From the NCBI RefSeq assembly GCF_002939475.1, contig NZ_PKFQ01000001.1:3655001-3719000 (forward strand): DNA of 64,000 nt, in the 5' to 3' direction. The notes beneath the pieces are model-generated. The model made no database searches, was not told where the DNA came from, and saw only the letters and a program-made list of their open reading frames with translations. Every line of letters starts with the position of its first letter. Position 1 is the stretch's first letter. Below, piece by piece: positions 35,712 through 59,373 of this stretch. The DNA is from Streptomyces cinnamoneus (GTDB lineage: Bacteria > Actinomycetota > Actinomycetes > Streptomycetales > Streptomycetaceae). The position numbers were made by a program, and so were the translations under genes.

Positions 35712-35783
35712 GTGCCCGGTGAGGCACTGGCGGAGGATACGAGATTCGAACTCGTGAGGGGTTGCCCCCAACACGCTTTCCAA
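35712..35783. repeat. attL: 72-bp copy of the tRNA-Ser(GGA) 3' half
   Basis: Identical over 72 bp to 59270-59341. It contains the tRNA 3' part (minus-strand CCA end at 35728) through the T-arm, variable arm and 3' anticodon stem up to the anticodon loop, plus 16 bp downstream of the tRNA. Beyond 35783 the match stops, so this copy is a truncated tRNA and marks the left end of the element. Confidence 0.93.
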
Positions 35784-41968: not shown

Positions 41969-42739
41969 CTACGTGCTGTGGGGCGGGTCGTTGAACTCCA
42001 GGCGGATGGCGGCTTCGAGCTGCCGGGTGACCTGGTCGGCGACCCGCTCGCCCAGGGCGGCGCTGGCCTTGTCGGCGGTGTAGACGATGCCGGACTCGGT
42101 CGCGGCCTCTGACGGCAGCGGGTAGACGTGGTAGTGCATCCGGCGCGGTGCGCGGCTTGTGCTGGGCGCCGCGGTGAGCTGATCGGGCCGGGTGGAGTCG
42201 GGGGCGATGTGCATGACCAGGCTGGACTCGACCATGGCGGCGTGGTGATCGTCCCGTCGGGCGATGCCGGTCTCGGCGGCGAGGTCGTCGCGGAACTGCT
42301 CGTCGACGACGTCCCACCAGGCGACGATCACGACTCGGGCGTCCGGGGCGCGCTCGGTGAACGAGCGGACGGCTTCACACAGGAAGCCGGTGTTGTCGAT
42401 GGCCGAGTTCACGATGACGAACTTGCGGACGCCGTTGTCGGCCAGCGAGGACAGCACGTCCTGGATGAGGTTTATGAAGGTCGTGCCGCTGATGCTGATG
42501 ACCCCGGGGAAGGTGCCGCCGAGGCGGTAGGGCTCGGTCGCGATCCCGTAGCCGATCGAGGGGGTGACGAAGCTGCCCAGGGTGCCGGCGAGCCGCGTCG
42601 CGAAGTAGTCGCTGATCATCGTGTCCGAGGCGAGCGGCAGGTGCGGGCCGTGCGGCTCTACGGCGCCGACCGGCACGAGGGCGTAGCCGTCCTGGGCACG
42701 GTGGTGGAAGTCGGGCCAGGTCATGTCTCCCAGCAGCAT
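41969..42739 (-). CDS. Creatininase-family amidohydrolase (MftE-like), altered metal site
   Basis: A 256-residue protein with the family opening ALVPVGAVEPHGPHLPLASD, giving ligands E28, H30 and D39. The late motif HHAAMVESSLVMH fits the HAGxxETS pattern. The central NGHYEN/NGHGGN motif reads NSAIDN here, so the usual metal-binding His is absent and Glu is replaced by Asp. The family includes creatininase and MftE, the peptidase that trims the mycofactocin precursor after radical SAM action. Its place next to two radical SAM genes suggests a similar peptide- or amide-cleaving role, but the substitution raises doubt about catalysis. ATG at 42739. Confidence 0.83.
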   Translation of the reverse strand: MLLGDMTWPDFHHRAQDGYALVPVGAVEPHGPHLPLASDTMISDYFATRLAGTLGSFVTPSIGYGIATEPYRLGGTFPGVISISGTTFINLIQDVLSSLADNGVRKFVIVNSAIDNTGFLCEAVRSFTERAPDARVVIVAWWDVVDEQFRDDLAAETGIARRDDHHAAMVESSLVMHIAPDSTRPDQLTAAPSTSRAPRRMHYHVYPLPSEAATESGIVYTADKASAALGERVADQVTRQLEAAIRLEFNDPPHST

Positions 42740-42769
42740 CGAAGTCCTCCGTGGTGTCGGCGGTGAAGG

Positions 42770-43741
42770 TCAGGCGTTCGTCCAGCCGAGGCTGGGTACG
42801 TCCCGGGTCCGCAAGGGGGCGGCGAGTTGCAGGTTGAGGAAGTCCTCTTTGTTGCAGCAGCCGCTGGCCGCTTCGCATGGTGCCCACGGCTCGGGCCGCA
42901 GCGGCAGCTCGAAGCCGGGGTCCAGGACGCTGCCGAGCGGTGCACGGTCCAGGGCCGCGTACCTGGAGCACCGGTAGACCTGGCCGTGGATGTCGATGAA
43001 CAGGTAGTCGTGCCCGGCGCGGCAGGGTCGGCCCAGGGGCGAGGACAGGCCGGCCAGGGCGGCCTGGGTGAGCGCGGTGTCGCCGCCGCAGGCGTTCACC
43101 GCGGCCACCACGTCCGCGTCACGCATCGCGGGCACGGTGCGGGACGGGTTACCCGCGTGGTCGAAGGAATCCGAGGGGGCTGCGGGGTCGTAGCCGAGGT
43201 CTACGTTGAAGCGCAGACCAGCAGCGCGTGCAGCGTCGCGTACCCGCTGGATGCCGCTGGTGTCGTGGCTGTCGAAGAGCAGCGTGTTGACGACGACGAA
43301 GCAGCCGTATTCCTCCTGGGCGAATACGGCCGCTTCCAGGAACTTCTCCAGCGGGAGCTGTCCCTCGTGCCAGGTCAGCCACAGCGACAGCTTGCCGAGA
43401 TTCGCTAGGGGCTCCAGCTTGGGCAGCCGCTGCCTGATGAGAGAGCCGTTCGACAGCAGTTCCACGTATCGCACGCCGGACTGTTGGGTGAGCCAAGCGG
43501 CCTTCTCCAGGAAGAACGTGGAGGCGAAGGGCTCCCCGAGGCTGCCCAGGCGCACTTCGACGGGGCGGGGCCGTGAGGCGATCCAATCCACGACGGTGGC
43601 GAAGGTGTCCCGGTCGATGGGGCTCTTCCAGTCGTACCGGTTGCTCTTGGCCCAGTCGCCGGTGGATACGCAGTACGGGCACTTCAGGTTGCACAGGCGC
43701 TGTCCGGCGACGTACCAGATCTTCACGGGGTGATCCGGCAT
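42770..43741 (-). CDS. Radical SAM enzyme with SPASM-like C-terminus (1)
   Basis: A 323-residue enzyme with C17-x3-C21-x2-C24 (GQRLCNLKCPYCVSTGDW), binding the SAM 4Fe-4S cluster. The TIM-barrel part includes VEVRLGSLGEPFASTFF and YVELLSNGSLI. The C-terminal Cys set (LGRPCRAGHDYLFIDIHGQV; YRCSRYA; APCEAASGCCNKEDF) resembles a SPASM/twitch auxiliary cluster domain. Such enzymes typically modify ribosomal peptides or small molecules. ATG at 43741 begins 10 bp after the stop of the second radical SAM gene, so the two are tightly coupled. Confidence 0.9.
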   Translation of the reverse strand: MPDHPVKIWYVAGQRLCNLKCPYCVSTGDWAKSNRYDWKSPIDRDTFATVVDWIASRPRPVEVRLGSLGEPFASTFFLEKAAWLTQQSGVRYVELLSNGSLIRQRLPKLEPLANLGKLSLWLTWHEGQLPLEKFLEAAVFAQEEYGCFVVVNTLLFDSHDTSGIQRVRDAARAAGLRFNVDLGYDPAAPSDSFDHAGNPSRTVPAMRDADVVAAVNACGGDTALTQAALAGLSSPLGRPCRAGHDYLFIDIHGQVYRCSRYAALDRAPLGSVLDPGFELPLRPEPWAPCEAASGCCNKEDFLNLQLAAPLRTRDVPSLGWTNA

Positions 43742-43751
43742 GGTCCCTCCC

Positions 43752-44945
43752 CTACCCGAAGGTGGCGATCGGTCGGAAGTCCCGGTTGGGGAAGTCCGGA
43801 GCCTGGTTGTGGCAGCGTCGGCACAGGAAGTCGTCGGGAGCGTCGGCCACTCCGAACACGCGTCGGCGCAGACCCACTGCTGCGTCGCTGGTCATGAGCT
43901 CGTCGATGGAGCCGTCGCGGATGTTGCCGAAGACTTCGCGCTGGTAGTAGTCGTTGCAGCACAGGAAGAGGTCCCCGGTCACGCTGATGTTGGCGTGCTG
44001 GACGGGCCAGCCGCACCCCGTCAGCCGCCCCTCGACGTGGACATCCTGGGCGTACGGGCCGCCCACGTCGCCGGCCCGGTCGCAGGTCAGGCTCGGGAAG
44101 ACCTCGACCCCGAGTGGCTGGTAGCGGCGGGTGACGCCGTCAAGGTTGCGGGCCAGGTCCTCGGCGACGCCGTTGACGACGATCTGGGTGCGCAGGCCCG
44201 CGTCGATTGCCGCGCGAAGGTTGCGCACCGTGTGCGGGTAGCTCCGTGAGCCGGTCAGCTGTGCGAACTCGTCCGGGTCGGCGCTGGGCATGTTGACGAT
44301 CAGGTGCCGCAGGACGTCGTGTCGCTTCAGTGTGTCGATCTTGTCCTGGGTGAGCGCCGAGGCGTTGCTGTACAGGGCGAGCTGCATGCCGTGCTCGGCC
44401 AGCACGGTCACGCGGTCGTTGAAGTGCTTGTCCAGTGTCGGCTCGTTGAAGAACTGGAAGGTGACGTAGTCGATCGTGCCGACGGCGGTGAGCTTGGCGA
44501 CGATCTCTTCGAACAGGTCCATCGGCATGGTCCGCCGCGGCTTCGGGTCGGTGGCCACGGGACAGTAGCGACACCCCCAGTTGCAGTGGGCGGTGACCTC
44601 GATCTCTCCGGACACCAGCCGGTAGGCCCGGCACAGATCCTCGGGTGCTTGGAGCCAGTTCCGGGCTGCGGCTGCGGTGACCCGGCTGGCGCCGTACTGC
44701 GTCACCAAAGGCTCAGCGGCCTGGGGCTCGGCCGCGCAAGCCCGGAGCATCGCCAGCATCTCGCGATCGCTCTCCCACACGAGCCTGCGGTCAAGGCCCA
44801 CGATCCCGAAGGCCGCGTCTGCCGCAGGGGTATCCCCTTCCGGGAAGGCGGGCCCGAAGGTATCGGTCCAGTAGGTGATCGGCGGGTCGGCTCCCGGGTC
44901 GACGTGTGTCAGGTACGGAGACGTCTGGAGCATGTCCGGCAGCAT
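43752..44945 (-). CDS. Radical SAM enzyme with SPASM-like C-terminus (2)
   Basis: A 397-residue enzyme. A ~110-residue N-terminal extension (NWLQAPEDLCRAYRLVSGEI before the core) precedes C121-x3-C125-x2-C128 (VTAHCNWGCRYCPVATDPKP). The C-terminal auxiliary region holds LTGCGWPVQHANISVTGDLF, LCCNDYYQREVFGNIRDGSI and FLCRRCHNQAPDFPNR, the spacing of a SPASM domain. GTG/ATG choice is clear: ATG at 44945 has GAGGAG 5 nt upstream. It is the first large gene of the operon and overlaps nothing upstream; a 49-bp gap separates it from a small membrane gene. Confidence 0.9.
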   Translation of the reverse strand: MLPDMLQTSPYLTHVDPGADPPITYWTDTFGPAFPEGDTPAADAAFGIVGLDRRLVWESDREMLAMLRACAAEPQAAEPLVTQYGASRVTAAAARNWLQAPEDLCRAYRLVSGEIEVTAHCNWGCRYCPVATDPKPRRTMPMDLFEEIVAKLTAVGTIDYVTFQFFNEPTLDKHFNDRVTVLAEHGMQLALYSNASALTQDKIDTLKRHDVLRHLIVNMPSADPDEFAQLTGSRSYPHTVRNLRAAIDAGLRTQIVVNGVAEDLARNLDGVTRRYQPLGVEVFPSLTCDRAGDVGGPYAQDVHVEGRLTGCGWPVQHANISVTGDLFLCCNDYYQREVFGNIRDGSIDELMTSDAAVGLRRRVFGVADAPDDFLCRRCHNQAPDFPNRDFRPIATFG

Positions 44946-44994
44946 GATCACTCCTCGCGGTAGGACCGGATCGGTTGAACTGCCTTGTTCCACG

Positions 44995-45210
44995 TCAGCT
45001 TTCGGGGCGAGCGTCCGGCACCGTAACGACCGTCGCCTTCGCCGGGTCAAGGGTGTGGGCCTGATTCCCGGCCACGAGGTACCCGGTGGCCACGTGGCGG
45101 CCAAGGATCGCCCCGGGCGCGGCCAGCCCGAGCGCGAGGAGTGCGAGCACCATGCGCGCCGGGTGCGACAAGTCGATCGGGGAGTCGTCGCGAGCGTGCC
45201 GGCCCTTCAC
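44995..45210 (-). CDS. 71-residue membrane protein
   Basis: One helix (MVLALLALGLAAPGAILGRH) between a charged start (MKGRHARDDSPIDLSHPAR) and a polar tail ending TVVTVPDARPES. GTG at 45210 overlaps the upstream gene by GTGA and has GAGGGGG upstream. It is a small gene next to radical SAM genes, so a precursor-peptide role was considered, but the membrane helix and lack of Cys or repeated core residues argue against it. Confidence 0.6.
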   Translation of the reverse strand: MKGRHARDDSPIDLSHPARMVLALLALGLAAPGAILGRHVATGYLVAGNQAHTLDPAKATVVTVPDARPES

Positions 45211-48825: not shown

Positions 48826-50361
48826 TCAGCTGACGACGGCGATGTGGCGTGCGGAGGCGTGGTAGCGGGTCTGCTGCCCGCCACCGGTGCCGCCTGCGAT
48901 GCCTTCGGTCTTGGTGGCCAGCCCTGCCTTGACCAGGCTGTCCAGGGTTCGGCGGGCTTTCTCGACGGCGGCTCGGTCGGGGTTGGTCGTGCCGGTCTGG
49001 GCGATGGCGAGATCGCGCACGCTGAGGCCGCCGGGGGCGGCCCGCAGGATGGTGACCGGGTCGAGGGCGGGGTCGACGGTCGTGGTGCCGTGTGCGTGGT
49101 CGTGGATCAGCTGCAGTGGGCCGATCTCGCCGGTCGGCGTCTTGAGGTGGTGCAGCGTGACGGCTGGGTCACCCGCTTCCCCGGAGATGAACAGGACGCT
49201 GCCCGCGCCGGAGGTGATCCAGGTGGAGCCGTAGACGCGGTCGAGTGCCGGCCGCTGGTCTCGCGACGCGTCGGCCGGGGATTTGCGCTGGTGGTGGAGC
49301 TCCATGACTTCGACGCCGTTGCGCAGGGCCCGCATGCGGGCGTTCTGGAAGGCGACGGCCAGGGCGTCGTCGACGAGAGTGCTCACCGCGTCTTTCAGGC
49401 TGTCGATCACGATGGTGTCGGCTTGGTGGGCAGCGGCCAGATCGCTGAGGAGGTCGGGCTCCTTGTCCAGGGTGGCGGGCAGCGGTCCCTGCCAGACCGC
49501 GAGCCGTTCCCGCAGGATCGCCTCGTCCTTCACGCCGATGCGGCGTGCCATGGCGCGGGCGATCTGCTGCGGGCGGTCCATGGCCAGGTACAGCACCCGC
49601 TTGCTGGGCGCGACCGGCATGTCGAGGACGGACTCCTGGAGGCCGATGCGGGCGAGGATGACCTGGTGGGCCAGGGTGGTCTTGCCGACGCCCGGAGCCC
49701 CGACGATCATCAGGCTCTCGCCGGACGCCCACGCGGTCTTCTCCCGAGTGCCCCACAGCGGTTCCTTGTCGGCGCCGGTCTCGGTGACGAACCGCCAGCC
49801 GTCAACCAGGTACCGGGAGAGGCGTCCGCAGCCGGAGGCGAGTGCCCGTTCCCGTTCGGCACCGATGTCCGTCTCGATGGCGGAGCGGATCTCGTCGGGG
49901 TCGGCACCCGGCTCCTGCGTGCGCTGGACGGTGCGGATGCCGTGTTCGCGCAGACGGCGCAGAGCCGCTGCCCTGCGCACGATGTCCGCGTAGTAGGCAG
50001 CGTGGCTGGCCGAGGGCGGGGCGCCGTAGAGCTGGTGGACGTAGACGATCCCGCCGACCCGGTTGATGTCGCCCTGGCGCGTGAGGAGGTCACTCACGGC
50101 GATCGGGTCGGTCGGCTTGTCCTCGCCACGCAGGGCGAGGAGCGCTCGCCAGATGGTCTCGTGGTGCGGGCGGTAGAAGTCGCCCGCGTCCAGCATGGCG
50201 CGGACCTCGTCGATCACGTCGGGTCCGTGCATGCAGGCGCCGAGGACGGCGCGCTCGGCCTCCGCGTCGTGCGGCGGCTGGACGGTCATGTCGGTCGGCG
50301 ATGCGGGGCCTGCCGCCTGGTGGGATGGCATCTCCGGCGGCTGGGCCGTACCCTTTGGCAA
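48826..50361 (-). CDS. DnaB N-domain/RepA-like ATPase, putative element replication helicase
   Basis: A 511-residue protein. The DnaB N-terminal domain is at ~30-130 (DAEAERAVLGACMHGPDVID; GDFYRPHHETIWRALLALRG). A RecA-fold ATPase follows, with Walker A VGAPGVGKTTLAHQVILARI and Walker B-like DTIVIDSLKDAV, of the RepA/AAA_25 type. A C-terminal winged-helix segment (ARRTLDSLVKAGLATKTEGI) completes it. It is likely the helicase for autonomous replication of the excised element. The start is an unusual TTG at 50361 with GAGGAG upstream, preceded by a conserved leader shared with the xis gene. Confidence 0.85.
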   Translation of the reverse strand: MPKGTAQPPEMPSHQAAGPASPTDMTVQPPHDAEAERAVLGACMHGPDVIDEVRAMLDAGDFYRPHHETIWRALLALRGEDKPTDPIAVSDLLTRQGDINRVGGIVYVHQLYGAPPSASHAAYYADIVRRAAALRRLREHGIRTVQRTQEPGADPDEIRSAIETDIGAERERALASGCGRLSRYLVDGWRFVTETGADKEPLWGTREKTAWASGESLMIVGAPGVGKTTLAHQVILARIGLQESVLDMPVAPSKRVLYLAMDRPQQIARAMARRIGVKDEAILRERLAVWQGPLPATLDKEPDLLSDLAAAHQADTIVIDSLKDAVSTLVDDALAVAFQNARMRALRNGVEVMELHHQRKSPADASRDQRPALDRVYGSTWITSGAGSVLFISGEAGDPAVTLHHLKTPTGEIGPLQLIHDHAHGTTTVDPALDPVTILRAAPGGLSVRDLAIAQTGTTNPDRAAVEKARRTLDSLVKAGLATKTEGIAGGTGGGQQTRYHASARHIAVVS

Positions 50362-50483
50362 GGAAACTCCTCACCCGGCAGGCCATATGGGGCGGCAACC
50401 CCGGCCAGGCCGGTCTGATCGTTCAGGGATGGGCGGTTGTGAGGTTTCTTCTTTCGGCCCCCGGTGTTCGTAGCACCGGGGGC
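50362..50483 (-). ncRNA. Structured leader, copy 1 (helicase 5' UTR)
   Basis: Read on the minus strand: hairpin CCGGTGCTACGAACACCGG, then the 19-nt block CGCCCATCCCTGAACGATC (50435-50417), then GGGGTTGCCGCCCC (50402-50389), then a GAGGA ribosome site and TTG start 27 nt further. The same order and blocks occur ahead of xis (51202-51319). The hairpin stem differs by a compensatory T-A to C-G change, supporting an RNA structure. Confidence 0.6.
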
Positions 50484-50638
50484 TTCTGCGTGTCCGGCGC
50501 CGTTCAACGGCGGACGCCGACCACACTACCCCATCTGATGCGCTCCGGAATGAGTTGCATTTGGAATCGAAATGGAGTTAGCTGTTCACCCCGGGCCATG
50601 GTGGTCCGGATCAGGTGTGCCGCGAGGAGGTGTGAGCA

Positions 50639-51184
50639 GTGAGCAGTGACGAAGGTGCCGCCCGCGCCGGCCCCGACCGGCCCCTGCCGGAGAACAACGT
50701 GGCCGAACGCATCAAGCTCGAGCGCGAGATCCGCGGCTGGAGCACGCAGAAGCTGGCGGAGCGGATGGCCGAGGTCGGCCATCCGGTGAACCAGTCCGCG
50801 ATCTGGCGCATCGAGAGCGGCAAGCCTCGCCGTAGGGTCAACCTCGACGAGGCCCTCGGCTTCTGCAAGGTCTTCGACATCCCGCTCGACGACCTGGCCA
50901 GCCCGCCGGGCCACGTCTCCAACACCGAGGTGCGCAGGCTCGTCGGCGAATACGTCGAGCGCTGGAAGGACTGGCGGGCCGCCCGCAAGCCCCTGGACCG
51001 CGCCAAGGCCGACATCGACGACTACATCAAGGCCCACCCCGACCAGGCGGACATGGTCAAGGGCCTGCTCACCTACGAACTCTCCGGCGCCGCCGGTAAC
51101 GACTTCACGCGCTACGACTCCGTACCCGCCCGGCACCGGAGCCTGCTCGGCGACGCCGCTCCTGCCAAGCCCGACGCCGAATAA
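50639..51184 (+). CDS. XRE-family HTH regulator
   Basis: A 181-residue protein. HTH at ~20-80 (RIKLEREIRGWSTQKLAERM; VNQSAIWRIESGKPRRRVNL). The C-terminal part is helical and charged (YVERWKDWRAARKPLDRAKA). It is the type seen beside integrase genes in Streptomyces elements, where it may control excision and replication. It lies between the two leader copies, each of which points away from it toward helicase or xis. GTG at 50639 follows GAGGAGG. Confidence 0.82.
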   Translation: MSSDEGAARAGPDRPLPENNVAERIKLEREIRGWSTQKLAERMAEVGHPVNQSAIWRIESGKPRRRVNLDEALGFCKVFDIPLDDLASPPGHVSNTEVRRLVGEYVERWKDWRAARKPLDRAKADIDDYIKAHPDQADMVKGLLTYELSGAAGNDFTRYDSVPARHRSLLGDAAPAKPDAE

Positions 51185-51201
51185 CCGCTTCACCTGACGC
51201 T

Positions 51202-51319
51202 CCGGCGCTACGAACGCCGGACGGCAGGCAGCACATCAACAACGCCCATCCCTGAACGATCGATACGGCATGGCCTGGGGTTGCCGCCCCTTCACGGCCG
51301 GCCGGGACGAGGATCACCC
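51202..51319 (+). ncRNA. Structured leader, copy 2 (xis 5' UTR)
   Basis: Hairpin CCGGCGCTACGAACGCCGG (51202-51220) with the same CTACGAA loop as copy 1, then CGCCCATCCCTGAACGATC (51243-51261), GGGGTTGCCGCCCC (51277-51290), a GAGGA site and TTG start at 51320. It is an inverted copy of the helicase leader, so both precede their genes in the same sense. Confidence 0.6.
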
Positions 51320-51619
51320 TTGCCCAAGAACGCCCTGCCCGTTTCCCAGATCGCCCATCTCCTCGGCGTCCCGGAGGAGAACCTCCGCACGCTCATGGCG
51401 GAGCGGAACGGCTCCCACGGCGACCCCACGCTCGTCGGGCTCACCGTCGCCGAAGCCGCCCGGCGTATCGGCATCGGCCGCACCAAGATGTACGAGTACG
51501 TCACCTCCGGCGAGATCACGTCCGTGAAGATCGGCAGCCTTCGCCGAATACCCGCAGAGGCGGTGAACGAGTTCCTCGCACGGCGCCTGACCGCCGGCGA
51601 CCTCGCGGCTGCGGCCTGA
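51320..51619 (+). CDS. xis: Excisionase-like HTH protein
   Basis: A 99-residue protein with the MerR/Xis-type winged helix (LTVAEAARRIGIGRTKMYEY; VTSGEITSVKIGSLRRIPAE). This is the DNA-binding excisionase family typical of genes just upstream of tyrosine integrases. The start is TTG at 51320 with GAGGA 8 nt upstream; its MPK start parallels the helicase gene's TTG start and MPK. An in-frame ATG at 51395 is the alternative. The integrase gene follows 11 bp later. Confidence 0.82.
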   Translation: MPKNALPVSQIAHLLGVPEENLRTLMAERNGSHGDPTLVGLTVAEAARRIGIGRTKMYEYVTSGEITSVKIGSLRRIPAEAVNEFLARRLTAGDLAAAA

Positions 51620-51630
51620 GGGGCGGCGAC

Positions 51631-52875
51631 ATGACAAGATCTCGCCAGCCGAATGGTGCCTCATCCATCTACCAGGCTAAGGACGGCCGTTGGCACGGCC
51701 GCGTCACGGTCGGCGTCAAAGACGACGGCACTCCCGACCGGCGCCACGTCTCCAGCAAGACGCGCGCCGAGGTGACCAAGAAGGTCCGTGAACTCGAGCG
51801 GCAGCGCGATGCCGGCACCGTCCGTAAGGCCGGTCAGTCCTGGACGGTCAAGACCTGGCTGACCCACTGGGTGGAGAACATCGCCGCCCTGCATGTCTCC
51901 GAGAACACCATCGACGGCTACCGCGTCGCGGTCTACCACCACCTCATCCCCGGTCTCGGCGCCCACCGGCTGGAGAAGCTGGAGCCGGAGCACCTGGAGC
52001 GCTTCTACAAGAAGATGCAGGACACCGGCAGCGCCGCCGGCACGGCCCACCAGGCTCACCGGACCGTACGCGCCGCCCTGAACGAGGCCGTACGCCGCCG
52101 CCACATCACCGTCAATCCGGCCACTATCGCCAAGGCGCCCCGCCTCGAAGAGGAAGAGGTCGAGCCCTACTCGGTCGAGGAGGTCCAGCGGCTCCTGCTG
52201 GAGGCCGAACGCCACCGCAACACCGCCCGCTGGGTCATCGCCCTGGCCCTCGGCCTCCGCCAGGGCGAGGTGCTCGGCCTCCAGTGGACCGACGTCGACT
52301 GGGAGGCCGGGGTGATCCGCGTCAGCCGCGGTCGGCTCCGCCCCCGGTACAAGCACGGCTGCGGCAACCGCTGCGGACGCAACCCCGGGTACTGCCCGCA
52401 GAAGATCAACATCCGGCGCGAGACCAAGAACACTAAGTCCCGCGCGGGCAAGCGGCCCATCGGCGTGCCGGAGGAGCTGATGAAGCTCCTCCGACGGCAC
52501 AAGGAGGAACAGGACCGGGAACGCCGCCTGGCACGCGACCTGTGGGTGGAGAAGGGGTACGTCTTCACCTCACCGACGGGTGAGCCGCTGAACCCCAACA
52601 CCGACTACCACAAGTGGAAGGACCTGCTGAAGGCGGCCGGAGTCCGCGAAGGCCGCCTCCACGACGCCCGCCACACGGCCGCCACGGTCTTGCTGATCCT
52701 CGGCGTCCCCGACGCGATCGTCGACGCCATCATGGGCTGGGAGCCCGGCAAGTCGGCACGCATGCGCCGCCGCTACCAGCACCTGACGGGCCGCGTCCTG
52801 CAGGACACCGCCGCCAAGGTCGGTGGCCTGCTGTGGGGCTCGGACAAGAGGTATGGCGACTCCAACGAGTGGTAG
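51631..52875 (+). CDS. int: Tyrosine recombinase (integrase)
   Basis: A 414-residue site-specific recombinase. The N-terminal arm-binding domain includes SIYQAKDGRWHGRVTVGVKD. The SAM-like core-binding domain is at ~65-170 (WLTHWVENIAALHVSENTID). The catalytic part has Arg in ALGLRQGEVLGLQW, HDARHTAATVLLILG (HxxR) and nucleophile Y382 in RRRYQHLTGRVLQD. A Cys-rich insertion (KHGCGNRCGRNPGYCPQ) sits between the conserved boxes. It should integrate the element at tRNA-Ser(GGA). ATG at 51631. It is followed by a bidirectional terminator and the convergent hsdR. Confidence 0.93.
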   Translation: MTRSRQPNGASSIYQAKDGRWHGRVTVGVKDDGTPDRRHVSSKTRAEVTKKVRELERQRDAGTVRKAGQSWTVKTWLTHWVENIAALHVSENTIDGYRVAVYHHLIPGLGAHRLEKLEPEHLERFYKKMQDTGSAAGTAHQAHRTVRAALNEAVRRRHITVNPATIAKAPRLEEEEVEPYSVEEVQRLLLEAERHRNTARWVIALALGLRQGEVLGLQWTDVDWEAGVIRVSRGRLRPRYKHGCGNRCGRNPGYCPQKINIRRETKNTKSRAGKRPIGVPEELMKLLRRHKEEQDRERRLARDLWVEKGYVFTSPTGEPLNPNTDYHKWKDLLKAAGVREGRLHDARHTAATVLLILGVPDAIVDAIMGWEPGKSARMRRRYQHLTGRVLQDTAAKVGGLLWGSDKRYGDSNEW

Positions 52876-53009: not shown

Positions 53010-56000
53010 TCAGTCGACGAGGTAGTGGGCTTCGATGTAAGCGACGGTGGAGTCGTACGGTTCCCCGACCGGCTTCAACATGTATCGGCGGAAGACCGCG
53101 GCGGTTGCGCGCCGGGCGCCTCGGTTGCGGGCGTCCGCGTTGTCCCATGCCTGGGCGAGGGTGCGAGTGACCACCTGGTCGATTTCTTCGGCCAGGTTCC
53201 TTTCCGTGACCGTGAGGCCGGACGGTGCGTGGTCGTGGATGATCCGCGACAGGACACCCACATGGTCGTCGTCGAGCACGACTGCTTCGTCGGGGTGCTT
53301 CTCGGCGTTCACGATGGCGCGGGCGATCCGAAGTGCCTCGGACAGGAACTCTAGGGCGTCCTGGGCGTTCTGGATAATCCGGTCTCGCAGCTGCTTGATC
53401 CGCTCCGCGAGGGCCGTGTACTTTGCGGACCCCGGTTCGACGCCCTTGTCGAGGGCGGCCTTGATATGGGCCAGGATCTCCGCCGCGGACGGCGGCCTCT
53501 TGTCCTCGCCGCCGCCCTTGTCGCTCTTGGGGCGGACGAGGGCCAGCAGCTCCTTGAGTATGGCAATGCCCTGGGCGTCCAGGACGAGGGCTTCCTCCTG
53601 GGAGGCGACCACGGAGAATGAGTGAACGTGGGCGTTGATGATGTCCAGGACCATCGGCCCCAGCTCGGCCAGCCGTTCCTTCCTCTCCTCGTCGGACGAC
53701 TTCTTGAACAGGGTCGTGTAGGCGGATCCGAACAGCGCGAAACCGTCACGGTACTTGGCGACCCGCTTGTCGGTGTTGATGAGCGGGTACAGGCGGGCCA
53801 GGAGCCGGTAGTCCCTGGAGAAAACCTCGGCGGCGCCGGGATTGGAGTCCAGGAAGACGTTGATGGCTCGCACGGACTCGTATCCGTGGACAGTGAGATC
53901 CAGGTCGTCCACGTCCGCGAACAGGTCTTCGATACGGGCGAAGATGGTGCGGAATTCGGCGACCAGCTCGGACAGGTCGGTGACGAACCCGCCCCCCTTG
54001 CCGGTCCCCCTTGTGGTCGGGTCGACAACGGCCCGCTGGACTTCCTCGGCCAGGCCGATGTAGTCGACCACCACGCCCGACGTCTTAACGAACCCGGTCG
54101 GAGACACCCAGGTGCGGTTCGGGCGGGTGATCGTCTGGAACAAGGTGTGGGCCTTCAGCGGCTTGTCCAGGTAGAGGACACCCTCGTTGGGGGCGTCGAA
54201 GCCCGTCATCAGCTTCGCGGTCACCACCAGGAAGCACAGCGGGTCGTCGGCGGCGAGGAACCGGCGCTTCTGCTCCTCCTCCTCGGTCTCCGAGAGCTGG
54301 TACGGCCGCATGGCGGGATCTTCATCCTTGGAGTCCGAGACGGAGATGTTCACCTCGGCGGTGATCCGGCCATGCTTCCCGACCTCGGCGAGCACCTGTG
54401 ACGCCTCGAAGCCGGCCAGCAGCTCGTTGATCTTGTCCGTGTACGCCACGGCCAGCTCACGGTTGAACGCCACGACCTGGGCCTTGAGGCCGTTGCGGTA
54501 GGCGCCGGCCAGGTAGTGGTCCACGATGTCCTGACAGACCGCGTGGATGCGTTCGGGGTTGGCGAACACCGAGGTGAGGCGACCGAACTTGCGGGACAAG
54601 GTCTCACGGTCGGGGTCGTCGAGATCGAAGTCGTCGGCGAACTGGTCGAACTCGGCCTGCAACGCCTGGTCGTCTATCTCGAAGGAGACAGGGCGCGGGG
54701 CCAGCATGACCGGTACGGTCGCCTCGTCCAGCAGGGACCGGGACACTGAGTACCGGTGCATCACCCTGCCCGGGTCGGCCTCCTCGCCGAAGAGGGCGAA
54801 GGTGTCGGTGGCGAGGTTTCTGATGGGGGTGCCCGTCATGCCGAAGAACTTCGCGTGTGGCAAGGCTGCGCGCATCTGGCCGGCCAGGGATTTCGACTTG
54901 GCGGACTGGGTGCGGTGTGCCTCGTCGACCAGCACGATGATGTTGTTTCGGGTGGACAGGTGCTTGCCGGCGTCGGCGAATTTGTGGACGGTCGTGGAGA
55001 TGACGCCCCGCACATCGTCAGCCAGTAGGGAGCGCAATTCCTTGCTGGTGGCCGGCTGGTGGAAGTAGGCGTCCCCCATCGCGGAGGTGAACACCCCGGA
55101 GGTCTGCCGGACGAGATGGGTCCGGTCCGAGAGCAGGATGATCGTGGGCGACTCGGTTCGGGTGTCGGCCAACAGCAGCGAGGCGGCGAACACCATCAGC
55201 AGTGTCTTCCCGGACCCCTGGTGGTGCCAGACAAGGCCCTTGGAGCCGCCCTCCAGGACCCGCTCGTGGATCAGGTGCGCGGCCTCCATTTGCGGGTAGC
55301 GGGGCAGATACTTCTTGTCCGCCCCGCCGCCAGCGGTGTCGAAAAGGGTGAAGTTGGCGAGCATGTCCAGGACGGTCGACGGGTTGAGAAGCAGCTGGGC
55401 GGAGCGCTGCACGTCTGCCTGCCCGGACAAGTTCTCGTCGTCGGCGGTAGACCGGAACGGTTGCCACAGATTCGTGGGCGAGCCGACGGCACCGAACCGC
55501 AGCTTTAATCCGTCGGAGGCAACGGCGAAGACATTGGGCGTGAAGAACCACGGGTACTCGGTGGCATACACGTTGTTGATCTCACGGGCGGCGTCGGCCC
55601 AGGCCGACTTCGCGGTCGGCGACTTCACCTCGACCACTACCAGGGGCAGGCCGTTGACCCAGTACACGAGGTCGAAGCGGCGAGAGGTCTTGCCGGGGAC
55701 GGTTATGGTCACCTCGTCCGACACGACCAAGGTGTTGGCAGTCGGGCGTGCGAAGTCGATGACCTTCAGGGCGTGCCACACGCCGTCGGTGTCCCGGAAC
55801 TCCTTATACCCGCGCAGCAGGCGCAGCACCTGCTCGTTGGCCCGTACGAGTCCGCCTTCAACGGCGTTGACCGTGGTGACGATCTCCTCGACCACCGCAT
55901 CCACGTCGAATCCGTCGATTACACCGGGGTTTAACCGGACGATGGCGTCCCGCAGTTGTCCGGCGATTACCGTCTGCGTGGTCTCACGCTGTAGCGACCT

Positions 56001-56084
56001 GCCCGCTGTGAAGCCCCAGCCCATCGGGAGGGACCACTGGATCATCAGGTTCTGGAACTCGCGTTCCCGAATGCCCTTCGCCAC
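53010..56084 (-). CDS. hsdR: Type I restriction endonuclease, R subunit
   Basis: A 1024-residue protein of normal length. The N-terminal nuclease is near residue 140-155 (FDLVYWVNGLPLVVVEVKSP, the PD-ExK lysine motif). The helicase motor has Walker A VWHHQGSGKTLLMVFAASLL (~286), DEAH box VLVDEAHRTQ (~386) and GMTGTPIRN. The C-terminal part couples to HsdM. GTG at 56084 has GGAGG upstream, overlapping the end of hsdS; a 3-bp gap. Restriction requires HsdM and HsdS, but hsdM is frameshifted here. Confidence 0.93.
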   Translation of the reverse strand: MAKGIREREFQNLMIQWSLPMGWGFTAGRSLQRETTQTVIAGQLRDAIVRLNPGVIDGFDVDAVVEEIVTTVNAVEGGLVRANEQVLRLLRGYKEFRDTDGVWHALKVIDFARPTANTLVVSDEVTITVPGKTSRRFDLVYWVNGLPLVVVEVKSPTAKSAWADAAREINNVYATEYPWFFTPNVFAVASDGLKLRFGAVGSPTNLWQPFRSTADDENLSGQADVQRSAQLLLNPSTVLDMLANFTLFDTAGGGADKKYLPRYPQMEAAHLIHERVLEGGSKGLVWHHQGSGKTLLMVFAASLLLADTRTESPTIILLSDRTHLVRQTSGVFTSAMGDAYFHQPATSKELRSLLADDVRGVISTTVHKFADAGKHLSTRNNIIVLVDEAHRTQSAKSKSLAGQMRAALPHAKFFGMTGTPIRNLATDTFALFGEEADPGRVMHRYSVSRSLLDEATVPVMLAPRPVSFEIDDQALQAEFDQFADDFDLDDPDRETLSRKFGRLTSVFANPERIHAVCQDIVDHYLAGAYRNGLKAQVVAFNRELAVAYTDKINELLAGFEASQVLAEVGKHGRITAEVNISVSDSKDEDPAMRPYQLSETEEEEQKRRFLAADDPLCFLVVTAKLMTGFDAPNEGVLYLDKPLKAHTLFQTITRPNRTWVSPTGFVKTSGVVVDYIGLAEEVQRAVVDPTTRGTGKGGGFVTDLSELVAEFRTIFARIEDLFADVDDLDLTVHGYESVRAINVFLDSNPGAAEVFSRDYRLLARLYPLINTDKRVAKYRDGFALFGSAYTTLFKKSSDEERKERLAELGPMVLDIINAHVHSFSVVASQEEALVLDAQGIAILKELLALVRPKSDKGGGEDKRPPSAAEILAHIKAALDKGVEPGSAKYTALAERIKQLRDRIIQNAQDALEFLSEALRIARAIVNAEKHPDEAVVLDDDHVGVLSRIIHDHAPSGLTVTERNLAEEIDQVVTRTLAQAWDNADARNRGARRATAAVFRRYMLKPVGEPYDSTVAYIEAHYLVD

Positions 56085-56087
56085 GCC

Positions 56088-57272
56088 TTAGACCTCCGAA
56101 TCGGCAGACTCAATGTCGATGGTGCGGTCCAGCAATCCCGACAGCAGCGCCGCCCGGACCTGACGAAGACGGCTGGCCTCCGCGCGTGTCGCTACCACCT
56201 GCTCGGCGGCTGCCGCCAGGGGACCAGTCAACCTGGCCTGCTGCGCGACGGGGAGGTCAGGAACGCTCATGTTGCTGGCGCGGGAGAAGCCGAGCGCCTT
56301 GATGGTGATACCGGTGGCCTGCCCTGCAAACTGACCATCCTCGCGTGCCCAGTGACACCACTGGAGTGCGTACTCCGGTGTCGAGACGCCCTCTCGTGCC
56401 CGGATGCGGATGACATGCTTGTCGAAGCCGACGAATCCGTCGACCTCGCCCGCCCAGAGCGCCGCCTGGCCAATCGACCCGCCTTCCACTAGGAGGACGT
56501 CGCCAGGGTGTACGGCATACTTCTCCTGCTCCCGAGGCTCGAAGTTCATGGTCTTCAGATCACTCAGATCGAGCGTCCCGACACCGATGTTGGCCGCACG
56601 CAGGTATGGGTGTACGTGGTCACCAATGGACTGTCGGGCTGACTTCTGCCGCCCGAGCCGCATCTCGAACTTCTCGCCCGCCGGAACCACGGGCACCACG
56701 AGCCTGTTGAAGAGGTTGCGCCGGAGGCCCGACTCGACCTTAGACAGGGCGTCGGCCTCGGCGTCGAGTGCGGTGATCTGGTCGTCGACCGCGTCGAGCA
56801 TCTCGATGATCCGCGCCTGTACCTCGCGGGGAGGGATCGGCAGTTGGATCTGCAAGAGTTGCTCTGGGTTGAGACGCTTGCGCCGTTGGACTGTCCCGCT
56901 TACTCGGTTCTTCATTTCTGCCCACAGTCGCGGTGAGCGACAGACGTGCCTCATCCAGTCGGGCATCAGTTCTGGGCCAAGCGTGAACGTCGGGAACTCG
57001 TTGCTGACGACGAATCCGTCGAACTCGGCAGGTACTACGGTGATCGGGCCTTCCCAGGCGGTCAGTTTCCGCATCACGACCTGGTCAACGTGCAGCACGT
57101 TCATCGCCGCGTACTCTGTGTCTCCGCCGTCGAGTTCGCCTTTTGCGACCAGCCCCTGTCCTGCGTTCAGGACCCCGGCCAGACGGTGGGTGGTTGCAGG
57201 CTCCATCGGTGTGCGCTGGATGTCGAGGCGCATCACCTCTCCGAGCGGACGAATCGGATAGCCGTCACTCAT
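56088..57272 (-). CDS. hsdS: Type I restriction-modification specificity subunit
   Basis: A 394-residue protein with two target-recognition domains separated by conserved helices (EVQARIIEMLDAVDDQITAL in the first spacer, LRQVRAALLSGLLDRTIDIE at the end). TRD1 is at ~15-170 and TRD2 at ~205-340 (PYLRAANIGVGTLDLSDLKT). The two helical spacers set half-site spacing. ATG at 57272 overlaps the end of hsdM by 8 bp. Its sequence is intact, so target recognition is defined even if the methylase is broken. Confidence 0.92.
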   Translation of the reverse strand: MSDGYPIRPLGEVMRLDIQRTPMEPATTHRLAGVLNAGQGLVAKGELDGGDTEYAAMNVLHVDQVVMRKLTAWEGPITVVPAEFDGFVVSNEFPTFTLGPELMPDWMRHVCRSPRLWAEMKNRVSGTVQRRKRLNPEQLLQIQLPIPPREVQARIIEMLDAVDDQITALDAEADALSKVESGLRRNLFNRLVVPVVPAGEKFEMRLGRQKSARQSIGDHVHPYLRAANIGVGTLDLSDLKTMNFEPREQEKYAVHPGDVLLVEGGSIGQAALWAGEVDGFVGFDKHVIRIRAREGVSTPEYALQWCHWAREDGQFAGQATGITIKALGFSRASNMSVPDLPVAQQARLTGPLAAAAEQVVATRAEASRLRQVRAALLSGLLDRTIDIESADSEV

Positions 57273-58838
57273 TGAAGCCCTCGATCCCGGCGGCGACGAG
57301 TACCTCGAGCATCCGTTGCTCGGTCTTCTGACGCTCGGCTCGGGCGACGTTGTACGCCTTGATGAGGGTGTCGAGGTCTTCGGCCTCAGCTGCGGCCTGC
57401 TTGATGTACCTGCCGATGTTGAGGTCGTACCCGTTCGCCACGATCTCCGTGGTGGGGACGAGCCGCACCGAGAGCCCATCTGGTCCATTGGGGTCCACCG
57501 GGTTGCCGGCGGCGTCGAATTTTGAGTGGTAGGCAGTCACCACATCGGCGATGTCCGCCTCAGTCAGGACATGGCGGTTCTTGGCTTTGGTGAACCGCTT
57601 GGAGGCGTCGATGAACAGCACCCCGTTCCGGCGCTCCTCGGCCTTGGTGCCGGGGGCACGGAATACGAGGATGCAGGTCGGGATGTCGGTTGAGTAGAAG
57701 AGGTTCGCCGGCAGACCGATCACGGCTTCCAGGAGGTTGTCGTCCAGGACGCGTTGGCGGATGGCTGCTTCCTGGCCCCTGCGAAGAGGACACCGTGGGG
57801 AAGGACGACACCGGCACGGCCCTTCTTCGGGTCCATGCTTGCGATCATGTGCTGCACAAACGCCCAGTCCGCTGTCGACTGCGGGGCGACCCCGCCGATG
57901 GCACGCGGGTCCTTGGCCCAGGGCTTCCACTTCAGGCTGTAGGGCGGGTTGGCGAGGATCACGTCGAACTGCTTCACGGACCCGTCCGGCTTGGTGAAGC
58001 GCGGGTCCTTCAGGGTGTCGCCGACCTCGACCTTGAACTGGGTGAGGTTGTGCATGAAGAGATTCATGCGTGCTACACCCGCAGTGTCTGGTACGGCCTC
58101 CTGCCCGTACAGCTTGAGCGTGTAGCCACGCCCGCCACGCGTCTTCAGGAGGTTCGCGGAGGCGATGAGCATGCCGCCCGACCCGCAGGTCGGGTCGTAC
58201 ACCGACTCGTACCCCTTGGGTTCCAGGACCTCAACGATCAGCTCGACGACCTCGCGCGGGGTGAAGAACTGGCCGGCGCGGGTGCCGGAGCCGTCGGAGA
58301 ACCGCTTCAGCAGGTACTCGTACGCCCCACCGAGCACGTCATGGGACATGTTGCCCTCATGCATCTTCGGGGTGCGATCCATCGCCTGCATGACCGCCGC
58401 CAACACGTCCCCCGACAGCACCTCCTCGGAGGTCCAGGCCATGTTGCCGAACAGGCGGGAGAACTTGTCAGGGTTGGCCGTCTCGATGGCCTGCAGGGAG
58501 GCGCGGATCCGCTGACCCAGGCCGGGCTGGGTGACGGTGGCGAGGATGGACGACCAGGAGGCACGACGCTCCTGGACGGTACCGGGGTGGATGAACGGGA
58601 TCTCGAACGACTGGTAGTCGCGGTACTCGATCTCTCGGGCTTCCTCGGCAGAGAGGCCGTCCAAGCCCTCATTCTCGGCCAGAAACTCCTGGTGGTGGTG
58701 CTCCCAGGTGTCCGACAGGTACTTCCAGAACATCAGCGGGAAGACGACCGAGGAGTACTGCGCTTCGGGCATCGCCACGCGCAACTCGTCAGCGGCGTCC
58801 CACAAGCGGTTCTCGATCTCCTGCTGGGTCACTGCCAT
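57265..58838 (-). pseudogene. hsdM: Type I modification methyltransferase with a frameshift
   Basis: The full-length frame would encode ~525 residues. The N-terminal part (58838 to ~57783) holds the coiled N-domain, AdoMet motif DPTCGSGGMLIASANL and catalytic NPPYSLKW. It should read GVLF-RRGQEAAIRQRVLDD, but after GVLF the frame shifts: the C-terminal half (RRGQEAAIRQRVLDDNLLEA to the stop at 57265) is in another frame. The break is at ~57782-57784, where GCGAAGAG appears instead of GCGGAAGAG, a 1-base deletion. The upstream frame ends at 57720. It could be true inactivation, a phase-variable state or a base-call error. Confidence 0.82.
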
Positions 58839-59269: not shown

Positions 59270-59341
59270 GTGCCCGGTGAGGCACTGGCGGAGGATACGA
59301 GATTCGAACTCGTGAGGGGTTGCCCCCAACACGCTTTCCAA
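59270..59341. repeat. attR: 72-bp repeat within intact tRNA-Ser(GGA)
   Basis: Identical to attL 35712-35783. It covers the tRNA 3' half (anticodon loop to CCA) and 16 bp beyond, so integration preserved a complete tRNA gene on the right. Confidence 0.93.
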
Positions 59342-59373
59342 GCGTGCGCCCTAGGCCTCTAGGCGAATCCTCC
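59286..59373 (-). tRNA. tRNA-Ser(GGA), intact, with encoded CCA
   Basis: An 88-nt class II tRNA on the minus strand. Acceptor GGAGGAT/ATCCTCC, anticodon loop TTGGAAA in stem CACGC/GCGTG gives GGA. It has a long variable arm (TGGGGGCAACCCCTCA), T-arm CGAGTTCGAATCTCG, discriminator G and genomic CCA. It is the integration target. Confidence 0.95.

Follow-up and report, generated by a model that had tools for sequence, protein, structure and literature searches.

It is likely that an antisense RNA, transcribed from the leader of the replication gene (rep) of an integrated element in Streptomyces cinnamoneus, represses rep in cis and the excisionase gene (xis) of the element in trans, and that excision and replication are thereby coupled. 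This prediction was drawn from a 64,000-nucleotide stretch of DNA (the window) and from its comparison with related loci, which supports the strand of the RNA, its hairpins, the promoter and terminator signatures, the absence of these signatures from xis and an element-specific matching of the two leaders. To our knowledge, the way in which excision is coordinated with autonomous replication in actinomycete integrative elements is not settled.

The integrated element and its two leader copies

A 72-bp direct repeat in the window includes the 3' part of a tRNA-Ser(GGA) gene (59286-59373, minus strand). One copy of this att repeat lies within and beside the tRNA gene (59270-59341) and the other at the far end of the element (35712-35783). 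The genes for a helicase, an XRE-type regulator, an excisionase and an integrase all lie between the two repeats, which were taken as the ends of an integrated element of about 23.6 kb. The DnaB-like replicative helicase, here the rep gene, is encoded on the minus strand (48826-50361; PF00772 and AAA_25; PHROG 6012, DNA helicase). The XRE-type regulator (50639-51184; HTH_31 below the Pfam cut-off; PHROG 3, transcriptional repressor), xis (51320-51619; HTH_17 above the cut-off; TIGR01764) and the tyrosine integrase (51631-52875; profile match) are encoded on the plus strand. The tyrosine integrase, xis and att repeats at a tRNA gene are those expected of an actinomycete integrative element (AICE).

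The element also carries a type I restriction-modification set (53010-58838), with hsdR at 53010-56084 and a specificity subunit at 56088-57488. As the methylase of this set is read in two overlapping frames (57720-58838 and 57265-57930), it may be broken. On the minus strand, a radical SAM/SPASM protein (43752-45104) and a creatininase-family protein (41969-42739) are encoded as a group (41969-45104), separated by an ORF (42770-43741) with no Pfam match that appeared radical-SAM-like by eye; the group is perhaps a small peptide-modification cluster carried as cargo.

Two inverted copies of one leader stand in front of rep and xis. The sequence-only reading had described them as sharing several parts in the same order, and this was confirmed by direct reading and a repeat search. 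The rep mRNA leader, the predicted cis target, occupies 50362-50485 of the minus strand (direct reading and model matches), and the second copy, the predicted trans target, occupies 51202-51319 of the plus strand (repeat search, model matches, and loop and hairpin-2 matching). Three pairs of inverted arms, ordered alike in both copies, were recovered by the repeat search: 50461-50479 with 51202-51220 (19 nt, 89%), 50399-50445 with 51233-51279 (47 nt, 79%) and 50389-50402 with 51277-51290 (14 nt, 100%). In the plus-strand xis copy, hairpin 1 lies at 51202-51220, a conserved block at 51243-51261 and hairpin 2 at 51277-51290. Hairpin 2 of the helicase copy, located by the same search, is GGGGTTGCCGCCCC on the minus strand (50389-50402), upstream of the Shine-Dalgarno (SD) sequence. 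The 19-nt block of this copy forms hairpin 3 on the antisense strand, GATCGTTCA-GGGA-TGGGCGGTT (50417-50438, plus strand), as judged from a comparison of folds. Hairpin 1 with its T-containing tail (50456-50488, plus strand; loop TTCGTAG) is the terminator-like end of the predicted antisense RNA, a role suggested by its pair asymmetry and U tract. Also as previously described, the hairpin loop reads CTACGAA in both copies, the 19-nt blocks are identical, the TTG starts lie 27 and 29 nt after the GGGGTTGCCGCCCC block, each protein starts with (M)PK, and the two copies are separated by the XRE gene. In the helicase copy the hairpin resembles a terminator in reverse orientation, and in the xis copy it does not.

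Distribution of the leader and the genes behind it

Had the blocks not recurred outside the window, the similarity would, according to the sequence-only reading, have been a local duplication only; recurrence was, however, widespread. When up to two mismatches were allowed, the 19-mer was found in 78 of the 295 genus genomes searched, while a reversed control pattern gave 7 hits, spread over 6 genomes; the architecture was absent from 8 of the 30 loci inspected from the 19-mer search. An exact 18-base pattern returned nine stretches, six of them Streptomyces loci with the leader and three (L003, L004 and L009) from other phyla, which were judged to be chance matches. Both copies, in the same inverted arrangement, were present at two of the six Streptomyces loci, from S. 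narbonensis (L002) and Streptomyces sp. ISL-36 (L005). A covariance model of hairpin 1, the linker and the block (model R1), built from 24 sequences, matched 118 of 392 genus genomes (E <= 1e-4). In the family, 62 of 150 genomes matched, representing 13 of 17 genera, although at least two of these genomes (G571 and G780) did so by a hairpin-only match. A class-wide search with the model gave matches in 47 of 296 genomes at E <= 0.01; among the 17 loci read from these matches, no member was found outside the Streptomycetaceae, only L073-L075, of the same genus, showed the architecture, and a partial look-alike (L080) was judged to be due to chance.

Nine IMG/VR contigs contained a 17-base pattern, and three matched model R1 strongly. 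The leader was seen in contigs filed as viral (L233, L236 and L238), and in L238 it is accompanied by a weak second copy in inverted orientation. In two circular, DUF3631-encoding Streptomyces plasmids of about 14 kb (L242 and L243), the matches were hairpin-only, and a BLAST search of the xis leader against plasmids gave two short chance-level matches. Rfam searches at gathering score, ctRNA families included, returned only tRNA and SRP RNA from the window and 17 other loci, and a laxer scan of 50100-51700 gave six hits (best E 0.59), all under their gathering scores.

Scanning the window and 86 loci gave 135 R1 matches. Six of them, short and hairpin-only on the opposite strand, were excluded, and the remaining 129 were labelled by hand, from their position and downstream gene, as 87 rep and 42 xis copies; an all-class MAFFT alignment was poor and was left out of the counts. 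The 42 rep/xis pairs were on opposite strands in 41 cases and on the same strand in one (L208), and their hit starts were 327-1204 nt apart (median 860).

The leader precedes replication genes of several families, with the xis copy usually inverted. The 14 further rep representatives comprised six DUF3631 proteins, three DnaB-like proteins and five without a Pfam family above cut-off, among which two MARIR proteins matched PHROG 2149 (replication initiation protein) and one matched other HTH/replication-initiation PHROGs. DUF3631 is named RepAM, the replication initiator of pMEA300, in PMC3218068. The HTH_17 cut-off was exceeded by five of the six proteins behind second copies, one falling below it. 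A RepAM element without a strong second copy (L215) has a small ORF before the leader on the same strand, which by eye is a possible xis within the rep operon. Upstream of several MARIR-type rep genes (L027, L040, L177 and L201), a short ORF of about 28 codons in L027 was seen by eye to end just before the rep start, which suggests translational coupling.

A predicted antisense RNA at the replication gene

For 45 of the 87 rep copies, hand-picked for diversity, hairpin 1, the linker and the block were aligned separately per strand. RNAalifold returned a consensus fold of -31.7 kcal/mol with 18 pairs for the antisense strand, against -5.5 kcal/mol with 7 pairs for the sense strand. The antisense alignment contained 95.6% standard pairs and both-side changes at 10 pairs (shuffle mean 4.2), and its covariation score was 0.315, compared with at most 0.137 when slid. 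The T-A to C-G stem change noted by the earlier reading was real, this pair being CG in 19, UA in 17 and UG in 9 of the antisense sequences and never broken. In hairpin 1 of the rep copies, the non-Watson-Crick cells on the sense strand were 89 A.C and 2 G.U, which means that most of them become G.U when the antisense strand is read; those of the xis copies were 38 A.C, 17 G.U and 13 other. Hairpin 1 was more stable on the antisense strand in 79 of 87 rep copies and also in 36 of 42 xis copies, so this difference between the strands is not by itself enough to distinguish rep.

The conserved block on the antisense strand folds as a G.U-rich hairpin, GAUCGUUCA-GGGA-UGGGCGGUU, which RNAalifold recovered unaided from the 45 antisense rep copies. 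This hairpin 3 folded better on the antisense than on the sense strand in every non-redundant copy (71/71 rep and 35/35 xis), with rep means of -8.2 against -1.3 kcal/mol and mononucleotide-shuffle z-scores of -1.7 against +0.5. Hairpin 2, which adjoins the SD sequence, was strand-neutral in rep copies (41 G.U and 34 A.C on the sense strand; 19 and 46 in xis copies). The earlier claim of a covarying RNA structure therefore held as regards the covariation, but the conserved structured molecule appears from these alignments to lie mainly on the strand opposite the mRNA leader, although the sense helicase leader of the window (161 nt) folds well on its own (z = -3.05). The sense xis leader of the window was no better than its shuffles (z = -0.24). 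For hairpin 1, the linker and the block, the conserved mRNA-strand structure expected of a riboswitch or attenuator was not found.

A promoter signature was found on the antisense strand within the first rep codons. In the window, the putative -10 box is TACCCT (50349-50354, plus strand), across helicase codons 3-5, and the putative -35 box is ATGGCA (50325-50330, plus strand), inside the helicase coding region, with a conserved TG and an 18-nt spacer to the -10 box. The corresponding motif ANNNTA[CT], an antisense TANNNT box, was present no more than 26 nt after the SD sequence in 73 of 87 rep copies (7.9 expected by shuffling) and in 0 of 40 xis copies (3.1 expected), two xis rows without a recognised SD being left out. 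Fourteen rep copies did not contain the exact motif; in 12 of these a shifted box, CATACT or CATAAT, is present as AGTATG or ATTATG, and the remaining ones are L186 and L201, the latter due to a misplaced SD. At the -35 place, with the 18-nt spacer, T was found in 72% and G in 95% of 85 distinct rep sequences, and the motif T was the third codon base in 55 of 57 distinct in-frame cases, over eight codons, T making up only 6.8% of later third bases in rep genes with the motif; as the -35 analysis was anchored on the -10 motif and the codon analysis was conditional on it, the -10 letters there are true by construction, and independent information comes only from the codon position, the -35 and the flanking bases. 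At the MARIR-type loci with a short ORF before rep, the antisense -10 sits in that ORF.

At the other end of the leader, at least three U were present in the eight bases after antisense hairpin 1 in 78 of 87 rep copies, against 6 of 42 xis copies. Hairpin 1 is missing from a single rep copy (L052). When the window was scanned strictly for sigma-70 promoters and terminators, no call was made at the antisense promoter or at the hairpin-1 terminator, and the U tail in the window is short; the one terminator-like match, no better than chance, was hairpin 3 of the xis copy on the antisense strand. Two features of countertranscripts, an opposite-strand promoter at the start of the rep gene and an intrinsic terminator inside the leader, were thus found as comparative signatures, with a negative strict scan of the window for each, and a third, conserved stem-loops on the antisense strand, was also present. 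As a raw count, 25 of the 37 distinct loop strings contain the U-turn motif YUNR when read as antisense, and 4 more contain it on the sense strand only.

These signatures predict a countertranscript of about 125 nt (50361-50488, plus strand) over the SD sequence and the leader, made at rep only, its start being placed from the -10 box and its end from the terminator-like hairpin. The predicted window RNA folded at -68.9 kcal/mol (z = -3.87), with none of 200 shuffles as good. Transcription would start at the rep start codon from a promoter of the form -35 nTGnCn, 18 nt, -10 TANNNT, and the RNA would cross the SD sequence and the whole leader, fold into its hairpins and end at hairpin 1 as an intrinsic terminator. 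Pairing with the rep mRNA leader would then block translation of the initiator or helicase in cis, as plasmid countertranscripts do. By analogy with these (parts of PMC4485353), pairing should be started by loop contacts and single-stranded parts, with the resulting duplex covering the SD sequence. A further SD-closing fold may be added by the rep linkers, whose complementarity to the SD is moderate and exceeds that of shuffled linkers (-8.7 versus -6.3), which was not the case for the xis linkers (-7.2 versus -7.4).

The xis copy, alternative explanations and known systems

The xis copies have neither the antisense promoter nor the terminator signature. The hairpin-1 loop was identical in the rep and xis copies of the same element in 40 of 42 pairs (shuffle mean 18.9; 0/100,000) and in 32 of 34 non-redundant pairs (shuffle mean 13.3), in permutations that ignore phylogeny and with the commonest loop common to 20 of the 34. 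The loops of L149, L156, L040, L058 and L056 were set by hand, as the hairpin finder had misplaced or shortened them, with L058 and L056 counted as mismatches; agreement was 37 of 42 pairs without the hand-set loops. The shared loop types were CTACGAA, CTACCAA, CTGCGAA, GGCCAA, TTGCAG, TTGGAG and CACGAA. The longest shared run in hairpin 2 was likewise 10.4 nt with the own partner against 6.6 nt with other elements (0/20,000 in permutations ignoring phylogeny). For the linker, the runs were 3.9 and 4.0 nt (15,661/20,000), indicating no element-specific matching. The sequence CGCCCATCCC, which is the complement of the hairpin-3 loop and 3' arm, was present with at most one mismatch in 34 of 42 xis and 54 of 87 rep copies, and the pairing second half accompanied it in only 17 of the 34 xis copies and in 50 of the 54 rep copies.

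Predicted duplexes between the own antisense RNA and the xis leader reached -153.5, against -127.7 for non-cognate RNAs and -89.2 for shuffled leaders. The own RNA was not always the best partner, ranking from 0 to 30 of 42, and as the rep and xis leaders are paralogous, their complementarity follows from common descent, which counts against a trans reading. Three weaker second copies (L218, L219 and L226) keep the block and part of hairpin 2 and have no hairpin 1, those of L218 and L219 carrying the hairpin-2 apex of their partner; together with the rep copy of L052, they show that the hairpin-1 loop is not present everywhere. Avoidance of equal loops by elements of the same genome, as would be expected of incompatibility, gave no signal (3 of 26 pairs, 2.8 expected; L052 excluded), and as co-resident elements share loops at the expected rate, no claim of incompatibility is made. 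One genome (G007) contains two RepAM-type elements with an equal hairpin-1 loop (L231 and L232); equal loops can thus coexist when integrated.

From these observations, we infer that the RNA is produced, that it blocks translation by pairing and that it also acts in trans on xis. The xis copy would have lost the promoter and terminator and kept the hairpin-1 loop, the complement of the hairpin-3 loop and arm, and the hairpin-2 apex. As these recognition parts are kept, the same RNA could pair in trans and hold xis down. More copies of the element would yield more antisense RNA, and as one RNA would act on both rep and xis at a dose rising with the copies, excision and replication would be coupled and self-limiting. 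We favour, with some reserve, the wider view of a family-wide antisense RNA of the Streptomycetaceae that serves several initiators and represses the excisionase in trans through a duplicated, promoter-less target, providing copy-number control and a lysogeny-like lock, with loops that diversify between elements and match within them.

The alternative that deserves most attention, an unlikely one in our judgement, is that the antisense RNA is real but acts in cis on rep only, and that the xis copy is a relic or has another use, for example as an xis translation leader. The absence of promoter and terminator from the xis copies, the loss of half of the block from many of them (17 of the 34 with CGCCCATCCC also keep the pairing second half) and the lack of hairpin 1 in some would all fit this alternative. 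However, xis keeps the parts that would contact the antisense RNA, and these track the rep copy of their own element while the linker does not; as a relic should not follow changes of the loop, this tracking counts against a relic. A functionless origin of the pair by gene conversion or a recent duplication at the locus would explain why the copies are clearly paralogous, but the family-wide recurrence and the conservation of loops beside unmatched linkers leave it with a negligible probability.

Two further explanations would place the signal elsewhere than on an antisense RNA. In the one, the XRE protein or another DNA-binding protein would bind the shared blocks before both genes as a double operator, which the inverted shared blocks, typical of operators, and the XRE gene between the copies in the window would suggest. 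This is highly improbable: the conserved parts are constrained by pairing, with a strand-specific use of G.U, the xis copy is located after the stop codon of the XRE gene and is perhaps internal to an operon, and an operator does not account for the antisense -10, the terminator or the strand-specific G.U pairs. It was rejected as the main explanation. The sequence-only reading had proposed one control signal, riboregulator or double operator, for the replication gene and xis; a shared signal that is RNA-based, recurrent and covarying was upheld, and nothing specific to an XRE double operator was found. The other explanation, a sense-strand riboswitch or attenuator in both mRNAs, has in its favour the fold of the sense helicase leader, hairpin 2 just upstream of the SD, which pairs on both strands, and the SD complementarity of the rep linkers. 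A structure on the sense strand may contribute to the mechanism, but the weak consensus fold of that strand over hairpin 1, the linker and the block, the A.C mismatches of hairpin 1 there, a block that hardly folds and a sense xis leader no better than its shuffles make this explanation more improbable still, and it was rejected as the main one.

The antisense RNA reading can be set beside several known systems. Actinomycete integrative and conjugative elements of the pSAM2/pMEA300 type carry an integrase, xis and their own replication functions (PMC3218068, main text), as does the window element, and RepAM is among the genes behind the leader. The window element itself differs in having a DnaB-like helicase in this place, and the word 'antisense' is absent from the main text of PMC3218068. 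Among the matches listed from the open-access literature, most subscription papers lying outside this scope, no description of such a system was found. Antisense control of rep is of a known kind; for the family, its host range, the placement of the promoter and the sharing of the target with xis, no precedent appeared in the Rfam searches or among the open-access matches listed. The prediction provides a concrete RNA whose start, end and targets can readily be tested. It also suggests that integrating elements have taken over antisense control of the plasmid type and brought a second gene under it; the matched rep/xis loops would supply orthogonal RNA regulators for use in Streptomyces.

Countertranscript control of rep translation is exemplified by CopA/CopT of plasmid R1, a plasmid in which tap and repA are also translationally coupled, an arrangement that the short leader ORF before several MARIR-type rep genes resembles. 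Like plasmid countertranscripts, including R1 CopA and, as described in PMC4485353, RNAII of pMV158, the predicted RNA is a small antisense RNA from a rep leader that ends at a GC-rich intrinsic terminator. Plasmid countertranscripts inhibit rep translation, as the RNA predicted here would do. Unlike them, it belongs to integrating actinomycete elements, has its promoter inside the first rep codons, would have a second, promoter-less target copy before xis, and would serve several initiator families. The immunity CI RNA of phage P4 is a small RNA of an integrative element that is processed from a leader transcript and is not antisense; we know of no excisionase gene among its targets. The two are alike in that the replication operon of an integrative element would be held down through its leader, but whereas the CI RNA is cut from the leader transcript, the RNA predicted here would be antisense to the leader and aimed also at xis.
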